Positions 1 to 30,858 of a DNA stretch of 35,518 nt are shown piece by piece. Position 1 is the stretch's first letter, and every line of letters starts with the position of its first letter. Source of the DNA: Schlesneria paludicola DSM 18645 (GTDB lineage: Bacteria > Planctomycetota > Planctomycetia > Planctomycetales > Planctomycetaceae); the NCBI GenBank assembly GCA_945869955.1, contig CAMBQP010000037.1, positions 1 through 35,518 of the forward strand. Reading direction: 5' to 3'. The notes beneath the pieces are model-generated. The model did not search any database and was not told the DNA's origin. It saw only the letters and a list, made by a program, of their open reading frames with translations. The translations under genes and the position numbers were made by a program.

Positions 1-126
1 AAACGAGTTCTGATCCTTTGGTTTTTCCGCTGGCTCAGGGGGCGACAGTTTTGGAAGTTCTTTCCAAACGTTTGGATGTTTGGTCTTACGGCACGGTCGT
101 TTGTTTGTAGAATCACTCAATCGTGG

Positions 127-170
127 AAGAATGGGGACAGACACCGCGGACGGAGTCAGTTCCCGTTCTT
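127..170 (+). repeat. REP-like hairpin, short form, copy 1
   Basis: The arms AAGAATGGGGAC (127-138) and GTTCCCGTTCTT (159-170) are complementary at 10 of 12 positions. Inside them lie ACAGACACC and GGAGTCAGT around a six-base loop. The stem reads as six pairs, A.A mismatch, GAC/GTC, A.A mismatch, two pairs. It is the first of two same-orientation copies set 70 bp apart in the RAYT pseudogene. Confidence 0.75.
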
Positions 171-193
171 TCACGCGACGAGCTGGTCGCGCC

Positions 194-243
194 GGGAGGA
201 AAGGGGACAGACACCGCGGACGGAGTCAGTCCCCTTTCCTCCC
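194..243 (+). repeat. REP-like hairpin, short form, copy 2
   Basis: The arms GGGAGGAAAGGGGAC (194-208) and GTCCCCTTTCCTCCC (229-243) are a perfect 15-bp inverted repeat around the same core as copy 1. The ten bases CTGGTCGCGC occur at both edges (183-192 and 243-252), which resembles a target-site duplication but could also be part of a larger tandem duplication. The core is identical to copy 1 over about 28 bases. Confidence 0.8.
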
Positions 244-651
244 TGGTCGCGCTGGATGTTGTGTGGAGAAATCAGAGGGGTCAGAGTCATGGCCGGTTGC
301 AGATCTTTTGGATAGACGACGATGATTCCGCGTTTGAACAAATCCTGGCGGAAGTGGTAGCGGAATACGATGTTTCGGTTTTCTCGTTCCCATTGATGCC
401 AAATCATTCGCATCTGGTACTGCGCCCGAATGTCGACGGGGAAATGAGTCCACTTCTACGCTGGGTGACTGCCATACACACGATGCGCGATCACGCTCAT
501 GATCTCACATCCGGGGAAGGCCCACCTGGATCAAGGGTATGACAATAGTTTTCCGCTCGAGGACGATCAGCACTTTCTGACGGTCTGCCGGTACGTCGAG
601 CGGAACACGCTGCGAGCCGAATTGGTTTCCCGAGCGGAACAGTGGCGCTGA

Positions 652-855
652 AATAGAAAAGAAGGAAAGAGCACAGTCCAAACAACACAAAGCCGCCATT
701 CGTTGATTCCGGGCCGGTGAACCGTCCGTGCTATTCAACGTGCGATTAATTTCATTCTCAACATCCTCATCCGCGCACTGGGTTTGTCGTTGAACTAATA
801 TTTGACCTGTCCCAATTTCTGCTGCCACGCGTCACGAACAAAATCGTTGAGCGGT
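652..855. other. intergenic, nothing recognised
   Basis: This stretch lies between the RAYT remnant and the stop of the minus-strand lipoprotein gene. I see no open frame with family features, no strong terminator hairpin and no repeat shared with the rest of the window. Confidence 0.5.
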
Positions 856-4133: not shown

Positions 4134-4207
<74 letters not shown>

Positions 4208-8252: not shown

Positions 8253-10478
8253 ATGTCGATGGCGACCCCCAGTCAGGAACTACGATCTTCTCAACGCCCA
8301 GTGCCATTGTTGGGGCGTCGAGACCTCGTCATCAAAAAAATTGATTTTCAAGGGGTGACCCATTACGTGATTAAGGACCCGGTGGGGTTAACTTACCACC
8401 GGCTTCGCTCAGACCAGTATCGCGTGCTGACGCTCCTGAATGGCCAGAAACATCTCGAATCCATTCGCGATCAACTGGTTCGTGAGTTTCCGGCCATCAG
8501 CCCAACCCTGTCTGATACGCAGTTGCTGATTTCAGACCTGCACCAAAAAGGTCTCGCCTACAGCCTTCGCCCCGGACAGGCGACCGCGCGCATAGATCAA
8601 AAACGAAAAAAACAGCGACAGAAGTTTCTCAGTGGCCTGACGAATATTTTGTCGCTCCGTTTGCCAGGCTGGGATCCCGACTCGTTCCTCAAAGGGATGG
8701 TCCCCTGGACGCGGTGGATGTTTCATCCGATCACGGCCTGCGCCGCCATCGCATTTGTGGCGAGCTCTTGGCTGTTGCTGGCGATTCAGTTTCACGCATT
8801 TCAAGCGGGACTTCCCGCCTTTAATCAGTTCTTCGGCTGGCCGAACCTGATTTTCCTCTGGATGACACTCGCCTGCTCGAAAATTATTCATGAATTTGGT
8901 CACGGACTTTCCTGCAAAATGTTTGGCAGTGAATGTCATGAAATGGGGGTCATGCTGCTGGTCGGAAGTCCTTGCCTTTACTGCGATGTTTCTGATTCGT
9001 GGATGCTCAGAAATAAATGGTCCCGAATCCTCATCGGTGCGGCGGGAATGATCATCGAAATCGTCCTTTCGGCGTTTGCAATCTTCTTCTGGTGGATGAC
9101 CGAACCGGGATTGTTCCACTTTTTGTGTTTGAATGTTTTTTTCGTGACTACCGCGACAACCGTCATCTTTAATGCCAATCCGCTGATGAGACTTGACGGG
9201 TATTACATGTTGAGTGATTTCCTGGAAATCCCCAACTTGCGACCAAAGGCTGACAAGTTGACCCAGGAGTGGCTGGCGCAGCTCTGCCTGGGGATTGAAC
9301 CTCGTCACGATCCGTTCATGCCGCAGACGAACCGTCACTGGTTCATCCTCTACGCCATTGCTTCCAAAATCTATGGTTGGTTCGTGCTGTTTGGTATCTT
9401 GATGTTTTTGTATACGGTACTGAAGCCGTACGGGTTACAAAGTCTCGGTCAGTCGATGGCCTTCTTTTCGATCTCAGGAATCATGATTCAAATGACAATC
9501 GGTGCCTATCAACTGCTGTCAGCCCCCCGTGAAAAGCCGATCCAGAAATGGCGCTTGGCACTGTCTGCAGCGGTGATGATGGCTTTGATCATCCCATTGG
9601 GAATGATCGAAGTTCCATTTATTCAGTGGGCGGCATTTCGGATTGAACCAGACCAAGTTCAGCATATTGTGACCAAAGTCCCGGGTGAATTAAAAAAATT
9701 GCACAAGTTCCCCGGCGATATCGTGGAAAAGGGTGATTTATTGGCCGAGCTTTCGGATCCTCAACTGGAAGAATCACAGCGGAGGCTGACCATGCAAAAA
9801 GATATTCAACTGACCGTGAAGCAAAATGCCCAGATCATCGACAATCATTCCGAGATGGAAATGGCGGACAAGATCCTGGATTCGATCAATAAGCAGCAGG
9901 ACGAGTTGGACAAGAAAATGGCACATCTGATGGTCCAATCTCCGATCGCTGGGACCGTGGTCGCCCCTCCTCGCCATCCCACCCCGAAACTTCAGCAGGC
10001 CAAAGTTCGCCTCGGAAGTTGGACGGGAACCCCACTGGACAAAAAAAACCAGGGTGCCTTTCTCGAAGATCGGACGGAGCTCATGAGCATTGCCCCGAAT
10101 CATAGCGTGCAGGCACTGCTTTATCTGGATCAGGCTGACCGGAATGACGTTTCCGCGCAGACAGATGTCGGATTAATGTTTGATCATCTTCCCGGTCGGG
10201 TTTTTCGAGGCAAAATCACTAACATTGCTTCGGCCCACACCGATTTTGTTCCCCCCAATATGGCGACGAAAAACGGGGGGCTGCTTGCCACCACATCCGA
10301 TCGGGATGGGCGCGAGCAGCTGCAGGAATCGGCCTACGAAGCCACGATCGTTCTGGATGAAGCCCCCGATTTGCTGCTCACGAATCTCCGCGGGACAGCC
10401 CGATTTATGGCGGTTAATCGCTCGACCTTCGGGTGGATTTGGCGTTATGTGCGACGCACATTCCACTTTAAGATGTGA
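8253..10478 (+). CDS. PqqD-like / site-2 protease (M50) / HlyD-like fusion membrane protein
   Basis: Three parts are visible in 741 residues. Residues 24-105 resemble a PqqD-type winged-helix peptide-binding domain (HYVIKDPVGLTYHRLRSDQY, then a DLHQKGLAY helix). Residues 150-450 are a polytopic membrane zinc protease: HEFGH at 213-217 is the metal site and NPLMRLDGYY (309-318, Asp315) supplies the third ligand, the site-2 protease pattern. Residues 475-720 carry a barrel-sandwich adaptor module (GELKKLHKFPGDIVEKGDLL, a coiled hairpin, then QSPIAGTVVAP). All catalytic residues are intact. PqqD domains present leader peptides to partner enzymes, so cleavage or export of a peptide or protein substrate is a reasonable inference, but no substrate gene is adjacent. 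A REP-type hairpin ending in a T-run follows. Confidence 0.85.
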   Translation: MSMATPSQELRSSQRPVPLLGRRDLVIKKIDFQGVTHYVIKDPVGLTYHRLRSDQYRVLTLLNGQKHLESIRDQLVREFPAISPTLSDTQLLISDLHQKGLAYSLRPGQATARIDQKRKKQRQKFLSGLTNILSLRLPGWDPDSFLKGMVPWTRWMFHPITACAAIAFVASSWLLLAIQFHAFQAGLPAFNQFFGWPNLIFLWMTLACSKIIHEFGHGLSCKMFGSECHEMGVMLLVGSPCLYCDVSDSWMLRNKWSRILIGAAGMIIEIVLSAFAIFFWWMTEPGLFHFLCLNVFFVTTATTVIFNANPLMRLDGYYMLSDFLEIPNLRPKADKLTQEWLAQLCLGIEPRHDPFMPQTNRHWFILYAIASKIYGWFVLFGILMFLYTVLKPYGLQSLGQSMAFFSISGIMIQMTIGAYQLLSAPREKPIQKWRLALSAAVMMALIIPLGMIEVPFIQWAAFRIEPDQVQHIVTKVPGELKKLHKFPGDIVEKGDLLAELSDPQLEESQRRLTMQKDIQLTVKQNAQIIDNHSEMEMADKILDSINKQQDELDKKMAHLMVQSPIAGTVVAPPRHPTPKLQQAKVRLGSWTGTPLDKKNQGAFLEDRTELMSIAPNHSVQALLYLDQADRNDVSAQTDVGLMFDHLPGRVFRGKITNIASAHTDFVPPNMATKNGGLLATTSDRDGREQLQESAYEATIVLDEAPDLLLTNLRGTARFMAVNRSTFGWIWRYVRRTFHFKM

Positions 10479-10495
10479 GAATAGTCGTTGTTGGG

Positions 10496-10573
10496 AAAAA
10501 CGGGTACAGGGACCTTCCACTGCGTATCATTCCGGTGAGGTTTTGACTTCGGTCGGAGCCAGTCCCCGTTTTT
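10496..10573 (+). repeat. REP-like element, 78-bp long form (copy A); possible terminator
   Basis: Outer arms AAAAACGGGTAC and GTCCCCGTTTTT are complementary except for one position. The interior matches the reverse complement of 30719-30796 without gaps, 65 of 78 positions in all. It lies 17 bases after the M50 gene stop and ends in a run of seven T, so it may also end that transcript. Confidence 0.8.
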
Positions 10574-10752
10574 TTAACAGACCGTAAAGGGCTCCCAGAA
10601 TAAAAACAGTTCGTACCGGACAGCCCCCAAAAGTACGACTCTCCAATCGGCATGGAGAGCCCACTCCCGATCGATGCCGATATAACGCTCGACTTTTTGG
10701 TGAATGAGGGGTCAAGTCTGTTCGAGATCCACTTCACTTGAATCCGCAAGAA

Positions 10753-24015: not shown

Positions 24016-24436
24016 GAAAAAGGGATAAGTCCAAATTCTTGTTGACAGAGTGCATTTTCATGGCATCTTCTCGTTGGCATGCCACGAACATCGCGCCAAG
24101 CGCCGGGGTGAATGAGCTTACACGTACTCAATCGTGGAAATGCCCGCGATCGGATTTTCACCGATGACGCAGCCTCTGCCGCATTCGAAGTTTATGCCCC
24201 TGGCCTATCCCACGACCTCAAGACAGGGGCGGGGTGTGAACGGAGTCTTGACAAAAATAGGAACGGGAAATCGTCCAACCATCGGTCGTTCGAGGCCGAC
24301 CGTCCGGTTCAGAGTCATCGCAAGAAGCAACCGCCAAACAACTCGGACTTTATTCCACATCTCGCCCACCCGAGGCCGCTCGCAAAATACAATCGATGAC
24401 AGCAAATCCAAAAATTATTGGACTTATCCCCTTTTC
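24016..24436. mobile_element. degraded RAYT-derived element with terminal inverted repeats
   Basis: The left end 24016-24037 and right end 24414-24436 are inverted copies sharing GGATAAGTCCAA plus flanking A-rich bases (about 20 matching positions with one small gap). Between them, from 24079, is the start of a RAYT gene with an in-frame stop; the remaining interior has no recognisable coding content. The arrangement looks like an internally deleted transposon. Confidence 0.6.
24079..24191 (+). pseudogene. RAYT transposase N-terminal fragment
   Basis: The frame from ATG 24079 reads MPRTSRQAPG, then a stop (24109-24111), then MSLHVLNRGNARDRIF, TDDAASAAFE. MPR-x-x-R-x-APGG followed by HVLNRGNAR and an acidic AAFE stretch is the standard beginning of planctomycete RAYT proteins. 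The stop replaces the second Gly of APGG. Homology ends near 24191; the catalytic HUH and Tyr parts are missing. Confidence 0.8.
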
Positions 24437-24454
24437 TTCCGCCAACGCCGCGAG

Positions 24455-24500
24455 CGAAAACGGGGACAGGCACCGCAGACGGAGCCAGTCCCCGTTTTCG
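24455..24500. repeat. REP-like hairpin, short form; likely terminator of the Hsp70 gene
   Basis: CGAAAACGGGGAC (24455-24467) and GTCCCCGTTTTCG (24488-24500) are a perfect 13-bp inverted repeat. The inner part AGGCACC/GGAGCCA carries the two A.A mismatches typical of this family. It lies six bases after the Hsp70 stop and, read on the minus strand, ends in GTTTTCG, so it may double as a terminator. Confidence 0.85.
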
Positions 24501-24505
24501 GCGTT

Positions 24506-26302
24506 CTACGATTGATCTGCGTCTTCTCGCACGCTGAATTCCAGCTTCCAGCGTCCGCTCCCGCGTGTGCTGACGCACCAGAGCTCGAGGACTCCCAGTT
24601 CCGTTAACTGCGCGTGAAACTGAACCGGGACATAATGGTCGTCCAGACTGTCATCCTTGGGAAGCGTGGCTTCCAGCGAGTCGGTCTCGACGATTTCATC
24701 GTCGGCCCATCGCTGCAGACGGACTCCCGCCTGATCCTCTTTACGAGTGGATGAACTGAAGAAGCGAAACTGAGCGGGCTGGCCGACAATCAGACCAATC
24801 GCGTCCGAAGGGACTTCCAGTTCGGTCCCCTCTTCCATACCGAAGGGAGCGACACAGAGGGCTCGTAAAGGACGTGCCGCCCCGGGAATGGCGAGTCCTG
24901 AGGTTTCAATCCCGATGTAATAACTTCGCGCCGTTCCACCCCGAATGCGGACGCCCCCTTTGATCTTGGCCCAGCCATAATAGGCCGCACCGCGGGCGAC
25001 CGAGTGATCCAGATCGTGAATCCCCTCCAGCAACTGTGGCGGTTGATCCGGAAACCAGCTGCCGAGTGTTTGCATCAGCTGATTTCGGAATGAGTCCGCC
25101 TTGTAGACGCCCCCGTTGAACAGCACATACGTTGGCCGGACTGGTCCCCCTTCATCGGTGCCGTGACTTTGGAGAAATGCCGCCAGGTGCCGAGTGATCC
25201 CCGCATCGACTTCATAGGGCAGCCCAATCTCCTGAAATCCCGAGACCCGATTTCTTGCCGGCTTGTCTGTCGATTTGCACAGCGGAAAAAAGCCGTCGAC
25301 CAGTAATTGCAATGCCGCTTCACGACTCACTTCGACCGTTACCGTCCCACCAATCAGCTTGCTTCCTCGTCCCAGTACCGAGATCGAATGCTTCTCGGGA
25401 CCTTGGGGGGCCAGCAGTGTTTCCTTGGCTTGCCGGCACGAATGCCACAGCGACACCGATTGCCAGGGATCCAGATTGACTCCCTTCTTGGCAAATAGAC
25501 CGGCAACGTGATGGGCCAGCGCAATGTCCATGTTGTCGCCACCCAGCAGCAGATGATTTCCGACGGCGACCCGTTTCAGCGTCAGTTCGCCCGCTTCTTC
25601 ACTGACACCGACCAGCGTCAAGTCGGTCGTTCCGCCGCCAACATCACAGACCAACAGCGTTTCCCCCACCTTCAACACTTTTCGCCAGCGATCACCAATC
25701 GCCGTCAACCAGGCGTAGACTGCTGACTGAGGTTCTTCCAGCAGGACCAGATCTTCTGGCAAACCGGCCGCCGAGGCCGCTTCTCTGGTCAATTCCCGGG
25801 CACTTGCGTCGAACGAGGCGGGGACCGTCAACACGACATGCTGTTCTGATAGCGGGGCTTCCGGATGGGCCTGATTCCAGGCGGCGACAAGATGCTCCAA
25901 ATACCGGCGCGTCGCCGTCACGGGCGAGACTTTGGGGACATCGTCTGCCGCACCCCAGGGAAGAATCGCCTGATGACGATCAATCCGACTGTGGCAAAGC
26001 CAGGATTTGGCCGCACCGACGGTGCGGTCGGGAAGTTCTGCAGACTGACGACGAGCCATTTCTCCGACGGCAAAGTCATTACCCGTCGACCACGGCAGGT
26101 CATAGGCACCGGTCGCCCCTTCCTGCTTACTGGCAAGATAGAGGAACGAGGGGAGCAGATTGCACGACTCGACGGTCGCAGGGGCAACCAGTTGTGGGAT
26201 CGGAAGGAGTTTGACTTGGGGCTGTTCGCCATCCAGCGCTGTGTACGCGACGGCACAGTTGGTGGTTCCGAGATCAATTCCAATGGTGTACTTGTGAGGC
26301 AT
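24506..26302 (-). CDS. Hsp70-like ATPase lacking the usual lid
   Basis: The 598-residue protein begins with the phosphate-1 motif of actin-like ATPases (IGIDLGTTNCAVAY), continues with LTVPASFDASARELTREAA and LLEEPQSAVYAW, the second phosphate motif VCDVGGGTTDLTLVGV and an adenosine-type motif YVLFNGGVYKADSF. After about residue 440 comes a beta-rich segment resembling the substrate-binding domain, ending in KLEFSVRED with no alpha-helical lid or EEVD-like tail, so it is a divergent Hsp70 rather than DnaK. The ATG at 26302 is the first Met before the ATPase; the frame is open to 26566 but the extension overlaps the fusion-protein gene and has no homology. It is the last gene of the exporter cluster, 121 bases after the fusion protein; a functional link is only inferred. 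Confidence 0.88.
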   Translation of the reverse strand: MPHKYTIGIDLGTTNCAVAYTALDGEQPQVKLLPIPQLVAPATVESCNLLPSFLYLASKQEGATGAYDLPWSTGNDFAVGEMARRQSAELPDRTVGAAKSWLCHSRIDRHQAILPWGAADDVPKVSPVTATRRYLEHLVAAWNQAHPEAPLSEQHVVLTVPASFDASARELTREAASAAGLPEDLVLLEEPQSAVYAWLTAIGDRWRKVLKVGETLLVCDVGGGTTDLTLVGVSEEAGELTLKRVAVGNHLLLGGDNMDIALAHHVAGLFAKKGVNLDPWQSVSLWHSCRQAKETLLAPQGPEKHSISVLGRGSKLIGGTVTVEVSREAALQLLVDGFFPLCKSTDKPARNRVSGFQEIGLPYEVDAGITRHLAAFLQSHGTDEGGPVRPTYVLFNGGVYKADSFRNQLMQTLGSWFPDQPPQLLEGIHDLDHSVARGAAYYGWAKIKGGVRIRGGTARSYYIGIETSGLAIPGAARPLRALCVAPFGMEEGTELEVPSDAIGLIVGQPAQFRFFSSSTRKEDQAGVRLQRWADDEIVETDSLEATLPKDDSLDDHYVPVQFHAQLTELGVLELWCVSTRGSGRWKLEFSVREDADQS

Positions 26303-26423
26303 AAAGCCGTTTCCGGGGTTGAGGTCAACGGCGATCCGTTCTCTTCGCGGATTCGCGAAGTGGTATTCGCGACCGAAAAGGAAAACGGTTTCACCAACGG
26401 CAGGATATTCGACAAAGGCTGTT

Positions 26424-27527
26424 TTACTCGACCACAGGCCGCGCTTCAATTGGCTCGTCCGACTTGGCCGGCTCACATTCGATCGACACATCCACCTGTT
26501 GACCGACATAAATGTTGGTCTGTTCCGCTGCGATTTCGTAGAGGACCTGCAGCACTCGGGTATCAATCCGTTCGGTGTTATCGCCGGTAAAGGCTTTCTT
26601 GGGAATCACGTAAGGCTCAATCCGGACGAATTGCAACTGCAGCGGGGACCCACCCGATGACCCGCGAACGGTGGCGGTTGCCCGGCCCGTGGGCTGAAAT
26701 CGGGGAATATCCCGTTCGTCGATATCGACGCGAATCCGCAATCGGTCCAGATCGCCGAGCAACACCAACGCTCGTGATGCGGTCGTATCGACATATTCAC
26801 CGGGACGAACGTCAATCTTCAAGATCTGTCCATCGACCGGTGCCCGAACCAGACAACGCTGAATTTCGTTACGCATGTTGGTCGCGTTGGCTTTGGCGAC
26901 TTCGACCGTGGCTCGTGAAACGGTTTTGTCGGGGCGCCAGGACCCCGCTTTCAGCAAGGCATCCTCGGCCACAGCCTGCTCCCATTGCTGGTCTGCCTCA
27001 ATGTAAGTGAAACGCCGCGATAAAAATTCCTCTTCCGACATGACCTTCTTTCCCAACAGTTGCTCGCCCCGGTCCAGCAGGTCTTTCAAGCGGATGCGGT
27101 TGGCTTCGGCGGCCTTCACTTTCGCTTCGCTCGCCGGAAGTTCTTCGGGACGGGGCATCTGCTCGATCCGCTCGAACTGAGATTCGGCCAGTATCAGGTT
27201 CGCCTCGAGAATCTGCAGTTGCGACCGGAGATGCCGGTCATCGACTCGGAATAGCGGTGTACCTGCGGTGACCCGCGAGCCTAATTGTTCGTTCGTGACG
27301 CAAACTTCGAGCACGATTCCGGCAACGGGAGTCCCCAACGCCACGTTTTCTGCCCGAGCCTCAATCAAACCGGCTCCCGAAATCGCGGTGACGAAAGCAC
27401 GCCGGGGAGGGGCGACCGGCGGACTGGTTTTCGGCAGTTTCTCGGCAGCAAACAGCAGGTGATAAATCGAGAATGCAAACATGCCGATTGAGAGCAAGGG
27501 AAGGAACGCGTTACGCAAATTTTTCAT
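26424..27527 (-). CDS. HlyD/DevB-type membrane fusion protein of an ABC exporter
   Basis: The 367-residue protein has an N-terminal membrane anchor (about residues 8-28), a first half-lipoyl segment (AGIVLEVCVTNEQLGSRV), a long helical hairpin (about 105-215) and a second half-lipoyl segment (VRAPVDGQILKIDVRPGEYV), followed by the beta-barrel and membrane-proximal domains. This is the order of DevB and MacA-like adaptors that couple an FtsX-type permease to export across the envelope. It follows the ATPase by 84 bases on the same strand. The ribosome-binding site before ATG 27527 is weak. Together with the next two genes it gives a complete fusion protein, ATPase and permease set; an outer membrane channel is not encoded here. 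Confidence 0.88.
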   Translation of the reverse strand: MKNLRNAFLPLLSIGMFAFSIYHLLFAAEKLPKTSPPVAPPRRAFVTAISGAGLIEARAENVALGTPVAGIVLEVCVTNEQLGSRVTAGTPLFRVDDRHLRSQLQILEANLILAESQFERIEQMPRPEELPASEAKVKAAEANRIRLKDLLDRGEQLLGKKVMSEEEFLSRRFTYIEADQQWEQAVAEDALLKAGSWRPDKTVSRATVEVAKANATNMRNEIQRCLVRAPVDGQILKIDVRPGEYVDTTASRALVLLGDLDRLRIRVDIDERDIPRFQPTGRATATVRGSSGGSPLQLQFVRIEPYVIPKKAFTGDNTERIDTRVLQVLYEIAAEQTNIYVGQQVDVSIECEPAKSDEPIEARPVVE

Positions 27528-30582: not shown

Positions 30583-30718
30583 GTTTTTTTCAGGCGGCTG
30601 CTTCTGCGATGGCTGCCGATGCGAATTCGGTGACTGGAAATCCGCGTTTACCGTCCTCAGCGGGGTGTTTGAATCCGCTGGAATGGTTTCGTCGGGGTCG
30701 CTACACTCCATTGCCGTG

Positions 30719-30796
30719 AAAAACGGGGACTGGCTCCGACCCAAATCAGAAATCCACTTGAACGATACACAGTGGGAGGTGCCTGTCCCCGTTTTT
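30719..30796 (-). repeat. REP-like element, 78-bp long form (copy B)
   Basis: AAAAACGGGGAC (30719-30730) and GTCCCCGTTTTT (30785-30796) are a perfect 12-bp inverted repeat, extended by one more pair (G...C) outside. Its reverse complement aligns with 10496-10573 over the full 78 bases without gaps, 65 identical. It lies between the divergent tetR and glucose-dehydrogenase genes. Confidence 0.85.
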
Positions 30797-30858
30797 CAAC
30801 CGGCAGCTCTGTTTTTGCAAGTCCCTCAATCTGGTCCCACTGACGAGTCGAAAATTCC

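Follow-up and report, generated by a model that had tools for sequence, protein, structure and literature searches.

Hairpins and decayed transposase genes in the window

The window, by which we mean the whole analysed stretch of 35,518 nucleotides, is contig C37 of the 6.25-Mb draft genome of Schlesneria paludicola DSM 18645 (394 pieces), referred to below as the source genome. It carries three short hairpins with cores at 133-164, 203-234 and 24462-24493, and a direct check of the sequence bore out the positions and sequences that the original prediction had given for them. The three share the core GGGGAC-A-GRC-A-CC/GG-A-GYC-A-GTCCCC and differ in their outer arms. The first (123-174, plus strand; 68.7 bits, E 4.6e-16) has GAC/GTC in the core, arms of the type AAGAAT at about 123-132 and 165-174, and a G.T wobble in the stem where its 3' side reads GTTCCC. 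The second (193-244, plus strand; 73.4 bits, E 1.8e-17) also has GAC/GTC, with arms GGGAGGAAA/TTTCCTCCC. The third (24452-24503, plus strand; 68.3 bits, E 6.3e-16) has GGC/GCC and arms CGAAAAC/GTTTTCG, and lies directly past the stop codon of a minus-strand gene at 24506-26566. The loop of the short copies is GCGGAC or GCAGAC; its end bases also pair, and this six-base loop is better read as four unpaired bases enclosed by an extra G-C pair. In single-strand DNA folding, every copy tested formed the expected long hairpin (z about -9.5).

Both left hairpins belong to a block at 1-254 (plus strand) that has a near-duplicate, 96% identical, at the contig end of C51; a tandem unit of 121 bp produces four hairpins there in a BIME-like cluster. 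Two further copies in the window have long loops between the same ends. One, at 10492-10577 on the plus strand (core ends 10502-10567), has a 40-nt loop and lies about 24 bp past a gene at 8253-10478; the other is at 30715-30800 on the minus strand (core ends 30725-30790; 50.8 bits, E 1.1e-10). These long-loop cousins are probably the remaining two of the five copies counted in the original prediction. An Rfam scan of the window matched no curated family except a tRNA at 4134-4207, and a known RNA family is thereby ruled out as the identity of the hairpins.

Decayed Y1 (HUH-tyrosine) transposase genes adjoin all three short copies. They belong to sister clades of the hairpin-associated clade described below. 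The remnant at 279-717 (plus strand), beside the hairpins at 133 and 203, is spread over two overlapping frames and reaches 74% identity to a source-genome gene at C42; a probable left terminal inverted repeat (TIR), AGAGGGGTCAGAGTCAT, lies at 274-290 on the same strand and may be compared with AAAGGGGTCAGGACTCATTG of relatives. One of the six Y1_Tnp matches in the source genome falls here, at 315-485. The remnant at 24046-24365 (plus strand), beside the hairpin at 24462, is of another sister clade; it keeps its N- and C-terminal parts, has lost the middle and contains stop codons. Its right TIR, TTATTGGACTTATCCCCTTTTCTTC at 24415-24439 (plus strand), matches the TIR of locus L252. Insertion of the left hairpins inside a Y1 gene spanning 24-717 was also considered and is ruled out, as they stand just outside the left end of the remnant.

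Size and distribution of the hairpin family

A search of the source genome with a degenerate pattern found 28 copies at no more than two mismatches and none with the reversed pattern as a control; half-sites numbered 250 against 51 in the control. The original prediction had proposed a covariance model and a search of the genome and its relatives as a check. A model built from 54 copies of the source genome gave 100 matches there, corresponding to about 73 distinct sites (27 matches fall on the opposite strand of a palindromic site already counted), which is a lower bound with 150 candidates scored. The family is thus found, as dispersed extragenic imperfect palindromes in high copy like those of canonical REP/RAYT systems, and most of the dispersed copies are far from any transposase gene.

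Within the genus Schlesneria the model found matches in 10 of 15 genomes and none in G009, G010, G012, G013 and G014. G008 and G004 yielded 128 and 129 matches, respectively, with both strands counted. The exact core is also present in Geomonas, Citrifermentans, Nitrospira, Desulfoscipio, Singulisphaera and others. A 30-bp core with the loop TGGC is identical between the planctomycete G008 (for example at L251) and Geomonas (for example at L179), whose transposases are distant. Loop length varies by genome, with 6 nt in the source genome and G002, 10 nt in G004 and mostly 4 nt in G008. As loop types are largely genome-specific, the family would have expanded inside each genome, as if grown from few masters.

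The long-loop copies form a subfamily of these hairpins, MITE-like and distinct. About 20 sites in the source genome (for example 30715-30800 of the window) have 40-nt loops related to one another, their outer arms are conserved, and many of them carry arms like CAGTCTGTTGAAAAAC/GTTTTTCAACAGACTG. A search of the open literature for core 13-mers returned three unrelated papers, apparently by chance.

Base pairing, covariation and A.A mismatches

The three short copies were predicted to have outer arms that differ in sequence and remain complementary, and the alignment of 54 copies agrees. Paired cells make up 90.7% of the alignment compared to 78.3% in shuffles, cells changed on both sides number 168 compared to 63.8, and the covariation score is 0.328 compared to 0.110; none of 500 shuffles reached the observed value of any of these measures. 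Sliding the partner by one to three columns lowered pairing to 38-50%. The pattern and regular-expression searches for copies took no account of the outer arms, which are therefore a fair test of pairing. Dealing the right flanks among the copies of the short set of the source genome (n=32) reduced pairing strongly, with z of 4-6 over most of the first 8 positions; the same control gave z of 6-8 for the outer arms in relatives (n=43) and weaker values in distant genomes. Very long perfect arms also exist, for example one of 19 bp at C10.

Nearly all covariation falls in the ten outer-arm pairs and the core pairs hardly vary; it is therefore chiefly in the outer arms that structural constraint can be seen. 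The main exception in the core is GC/AT at columns 19/34 of the alignment. The original prediction had described it as a compensatory double change, and the difference between GGC/GCC and GAC/GTC does exist; however, the AT rows come from positions 1-254 of the window and from the copy at C51, and since they lie within one block duplicated at 96% identity they count as one event. On the alignment, then, the change in the two left copies probably counts once. A long-loop copy at C2 also has the AT pair at these columns, which may be an independent change.

Conservation of the two A.A positions, another part of the prediction, was confirmed. They are kept in 49 and 54 of the 54 source-genome copies and in 185 and 207 of 212 copies elsewhere, rates that are somewhat raised by a search permitting two mismatches per arm and requiring more A than T at the A.A sites. 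TnpAREP of E. coli depends on the mismatch bulge in its REP, and bases that are unpaired or mismatched are what transposases of the IS200/IS605 kind read (PMC8266576); it is therefore fair to suppose that the A.A sites are read by a Y1 protein. By analogy with the E. coli bulge, the proposal that the hairpin is mobilised as a folded strand with a kink recognised by protein is likewise reasonable. With the paired sites, the reading of mismatches by Y1 proteins can readily be put to the test.

Association with one clade of Y1 transposases

A scan of the flanks of the fetched Y1 genes found a hairpin near all eight members of one clade of these IS200-like transposases and near none of 17 relatives; the eight of eight is somewhat favoured by choice, as a hairpin known beforehand was the reason for fetching some of the regions. 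The maximum-likelihood tree (midpoint root) separates the 8 hairpin-bearing genes from the 17 others with support of 96/95. The eight genes are those most like the G001 gene at C3 and span two phyla, Geomonas included. The fragment L099 and the Y1 remnants of the window, which have hairpins nearby, were left out of the tree. An adjacent Y1/HUH transposase of a matching clade is a further feature of canonical REP/RAYT systems, and the predicted link between a REP-like hairpin family and a RAYT-type (Y1) transposase is in this sense upheld.

The hairpin lies 5-97 bp downstream of the Y1 genes in G001, G002, G005, two cases in G008 and two in Geomonas (24-97 bp in the G001, G002, G005 and G008 cases), and upstream of the hairpin-clade gene in G038. 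Hairpins flank both sides of the genes at L251 (G008), L179 and L223. At L247-L249 a hairpin stands downstream and the left end is only short, matching or related; the left end GAAAAAGGGGAC at L248 matches the right half of the hairpin. No hairpins were found within 700-900 bp of the full-length sister-clade Y1 genes in the flank scan. In the 394-piece assembly of the source genome, the sole hairpin-clade gene found is a frameshifted remnant at C267 with a hairpin nearby. At L247 (3045-3130), tandem units resembling GAAGACGAAAAAGGGAACAC separate the Y1 stop codon from the hairpin.

The hairpin-clade protein is 233 aa long, scores over the Pfam cut-off for Y1_Tnp, and carries NHFH, WQ and YVERNP motifs that fit class 2. 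No Pfam family of the helix-turn-helix, which TIRYT proteins of subclass 2.1 have at the C-terminus, matched it at E<=0.001. With the NCBIfam model REP_Tyr_transpos, the Geomonas protein at L179 scored 82.6 (cut-off 80) and those at L247 and L251 fell just under. The only significant relative of solved structure is E. coli TnpAREP (4er8), aligned over the HUH and tyrosine motifs.

Terminal inverted repeats and relation to known systems

Inverted repeats lie on both sides of the Y1 gene at the sister-clade loci L252, L253, L257, L259 and L263. Several sister-clade genes have one kind of repeat (AAAGGGGTCAGGACTCATTG, AAAAGGGGACAGGTCC, GAAGAAAAGGGGATAAGTCCAA and TCAAAGGTGTCAGGCACCGTTA), an A-rich stretch joined to a GGGGWSAG-type sequence. 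The motif of TIRYT elements is GGGGWSAS (PMC3733652), which is matched exactly by two of these four repeats and nearly by the others. The segment GGGGACAG present in every canonical hairpin copy fits the same motif, and sister-clade TIRs carry GGGGTCAG and GGGGACAG. An upstream motif, GGGGACATTCTACTTTAA, is common to the Y1 genes at L247, L248 and L249, with a variant at L257, and is possibly another type of TIR.

One of the closest parallels is with TIRtron/TIRYT elements (Di Nocera et al. 2013, PMC3733652). Their Y1 transposase measures about 230-240 aa, its gene is flanked by inverted repeats that contain GGGGWSAS, and copies of their ends are dispersed in the genome. In the scheme of Quentin et al. 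2018 (PMC6006769) they probably correspond to subclass 2.1. Unlike in TIRYT elements, the ends here form compact high-copy hairpins with conserved paired A.A mismatches, and in the 2018 survey REP-like structures were not found beside subclass 2.1 genes (PMC6006769). TIRYT-type transposases, left without REP-like hairpins by that survey, gain here a likely cognate hairpin family with a recognition core that crosses phyla.

The hairpins also resemble the REPs of E. coli and TnpAREP (REPtron, group 2; PMC8266576) in being dispersed extragenic hairpins with stem mismatches, an adjacent Y1 gene and clusters. They differ in having two separated A.A mismatches rather than one AA-GC bulge, in their variable complementary outer arms, and in lacking the GT[AG]G foot. 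It is very improbable that they are canonical GTAG REPs of a known RAYT group that have merely diverged: Y1 neighbours, clusters and dispersed extragenic hairpins with conserved mismatches would all be expected of such REPs, but GT[AG]G shows no excess in the 20-nt flanks (0.09 observed and 0.11 expected in the source genome) and the core fits the TIR motif GGGGWSAS instead. CGTC is in excess in the 5' flanks of the source genome (0.24 vs 0.04) and its relatives (0.09 vs 0.03) and shows no excess in distant genomes; it looks less like a tag than like flanking sequence that a few clustered copies have inherited.

The REPINs of P. fluorescens (Bertels and Rainey 2011, PMC3116915) likewise consist of two inverted conserved ends and a spacer forming one hairpin, with frequent compensatory changes, expansion within genomes and a link to a Y1 gene. 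Their conserved ends lie on the outside and enclose a variable spacer, whereas here the conserved core is inside and the outer arms and the loop vary. The family is real, structurally constrained and transposase-linked, with a REP-like anatomy, a TIRYT-like end motif and no GTAG foot. It appears to work like a REP/REPIN system; judged by sequence, the missing foot would place it outside the canonical REPs and the motif would place it with the TIRYT elements.

We consider it probable that the hairpins are minimal non-autonomous ends of a TIRYT/REP-type system, recognised as folded single strands by one Y1 clade. Each hairpin would represent two element ends, an A-rich arm with GGGGACAGGCACC and a facing A-rich arm with GGGGACTGGCTCC, with a loop of 4-14 or about 40 nt between them that stands in for the transposase gene. 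On single-stranded DNA, for example at a replication fork, the element would fold into one long hairpin, in which the cognate transposase would read the fixed core and the two A.A mismatches on one strand, then cut and rejoin that strand, so that copies spread. Copies would come to rest chiefly on the 3' side of genes and tRNAs, a position in which the GC stem and T tract could act as a terminator. The arms would stay complementary because the fold requires it and probably also because one arm serves as the template for the other. Hairpin binding, strand choice, cleavage, movement and termination are the parts of this scheme that we infer.

Genomic placement and transcription termination

Open reading frames called at 100 aa placed many copies inside genes, and a limit of 180 aa removes many of these; 9 of 33 short copies of the source genome still lie inside such putative genes. 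Among short copies of the source genome and relatives within 60 bp of gene ends, 18 are at the 3' end and 2 at the 5' end by crude gene calls. The eight hairpins that adjoin tRNA genes are all 3' of them, and in each the A strand is the one opposite the tRNA; since several are orthologous, they represent fewer independent events. At six loci (L048, L055, L056, L250, L331 and L342) the hairpin lies 8-11 nt past the 3' end of a tRNA-Arg or tRNA-Pro gene.

This placement is what would be expected if the hairpins were bidirectional intrinsic terminators, in which a GC stem and a T-rich arm end transcription on either strand and the arms covary for the sake of the stem. The arms are indeed A-rich on the 5' side and T-rich on the 3' side, the window copy at 24462 lies just past a stop codon, and close relatives have ordinary terminator-like hairpins at its site. 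A terminator, however, could do without a fixed 26-nt core, without the two A.A mismatches and without a link to one transposase clade across phyla; some arms lack a T run (GATCCTCC), a simple terminator scan did not call the copy at 24462, and long copies in the source genome show no clear 3' preference. We therefore regard termination as an unlikely explanation of the family, and as a likely secondary role of its hairpins.

Orthologous sites and copying of the arms

Occupied orthologous sites were compared at 86-93% flank identity. At L320/L333 an A-T pair of the arm in one species is C-G in the other, with a small length difference in the adjacent right flank. At L316/L337 the arms GAAACTC/GAGTTTC correspond to GAATTC/GAATTC, a mirrored change of length. 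At L328/L338 one species has an extra G-C pair on both sides, and next to a shared left flank the core runs in the opposite direction (L328 1511-1542, L338 1437-1468); cores are also in opposite orientation at L323/L344 (L323 1517-1548, L344 680-711). In G002 the right arm at L326 runs into sequence that can be aligned to hairpin-free orthologs in G006 and G005. The left arm there would be an inverted copy of host DNA and part of the 18-bp arm appears native, with an alignment that is weak alone (58 of 2000 shuffles for G006).

These observations bear on a different account, in which complementarity of the arms arises by mutation: by template switching at a quasi-palindrome one arm would be copied onto the other, now and then with host DNA included, while the core would be an old repeat that does nothing. 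The mirrored indels and substitutions, the flipped cores, the seemingly native arm at L326 and very long perfect arms such as that at C10 are all in keeping with it. It leaves unexplained, however, why the core and the A.A sites vary so little from phylum to phylum and why there is a transposase link, and a new insertion replacing an old one would also yield mirrored differences and flips. As a complete explanation it is possible but less than probable; its arm-copying half and the explanation by transposable ends read as folded strands can be true together. The structural selection proposed in the original prediction is supported in part, mainly by the outer arms, the core being nearly invariant; the mirrored changes and flipped cores suggest templated copying or replacement of arms besides point-by-point selection, with the direction of change not fixed by the comparison. 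A more doubtful proposal couples palindrome-making to the Y1 transposase: hairpins would perfect themselves, a landed core folding back and priming the copying of flanking host DNA, which would give it its own long perfect arms and flip cores.

No clean empty sites that would define insertion boundaries were found, the intergenic DNA being too diverged at the first three loci and conserved on one side only at two more. At the orthologous places of three source-genome copies, among them the long-loop copy at 10492-10577, the relatives examined have no hairpin, so these copies would either have arisen here recently or have been lost there. With orthologous copies that carry mirrored arm changes, the upkeep of REP palindromes, an old question, becomes directly testable. 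At the G001 site of the L316/L337 pair (contig C114, L316 1490-1610), a second hairpin of the same family is nested in the loop of the first, together with a third partial arm.
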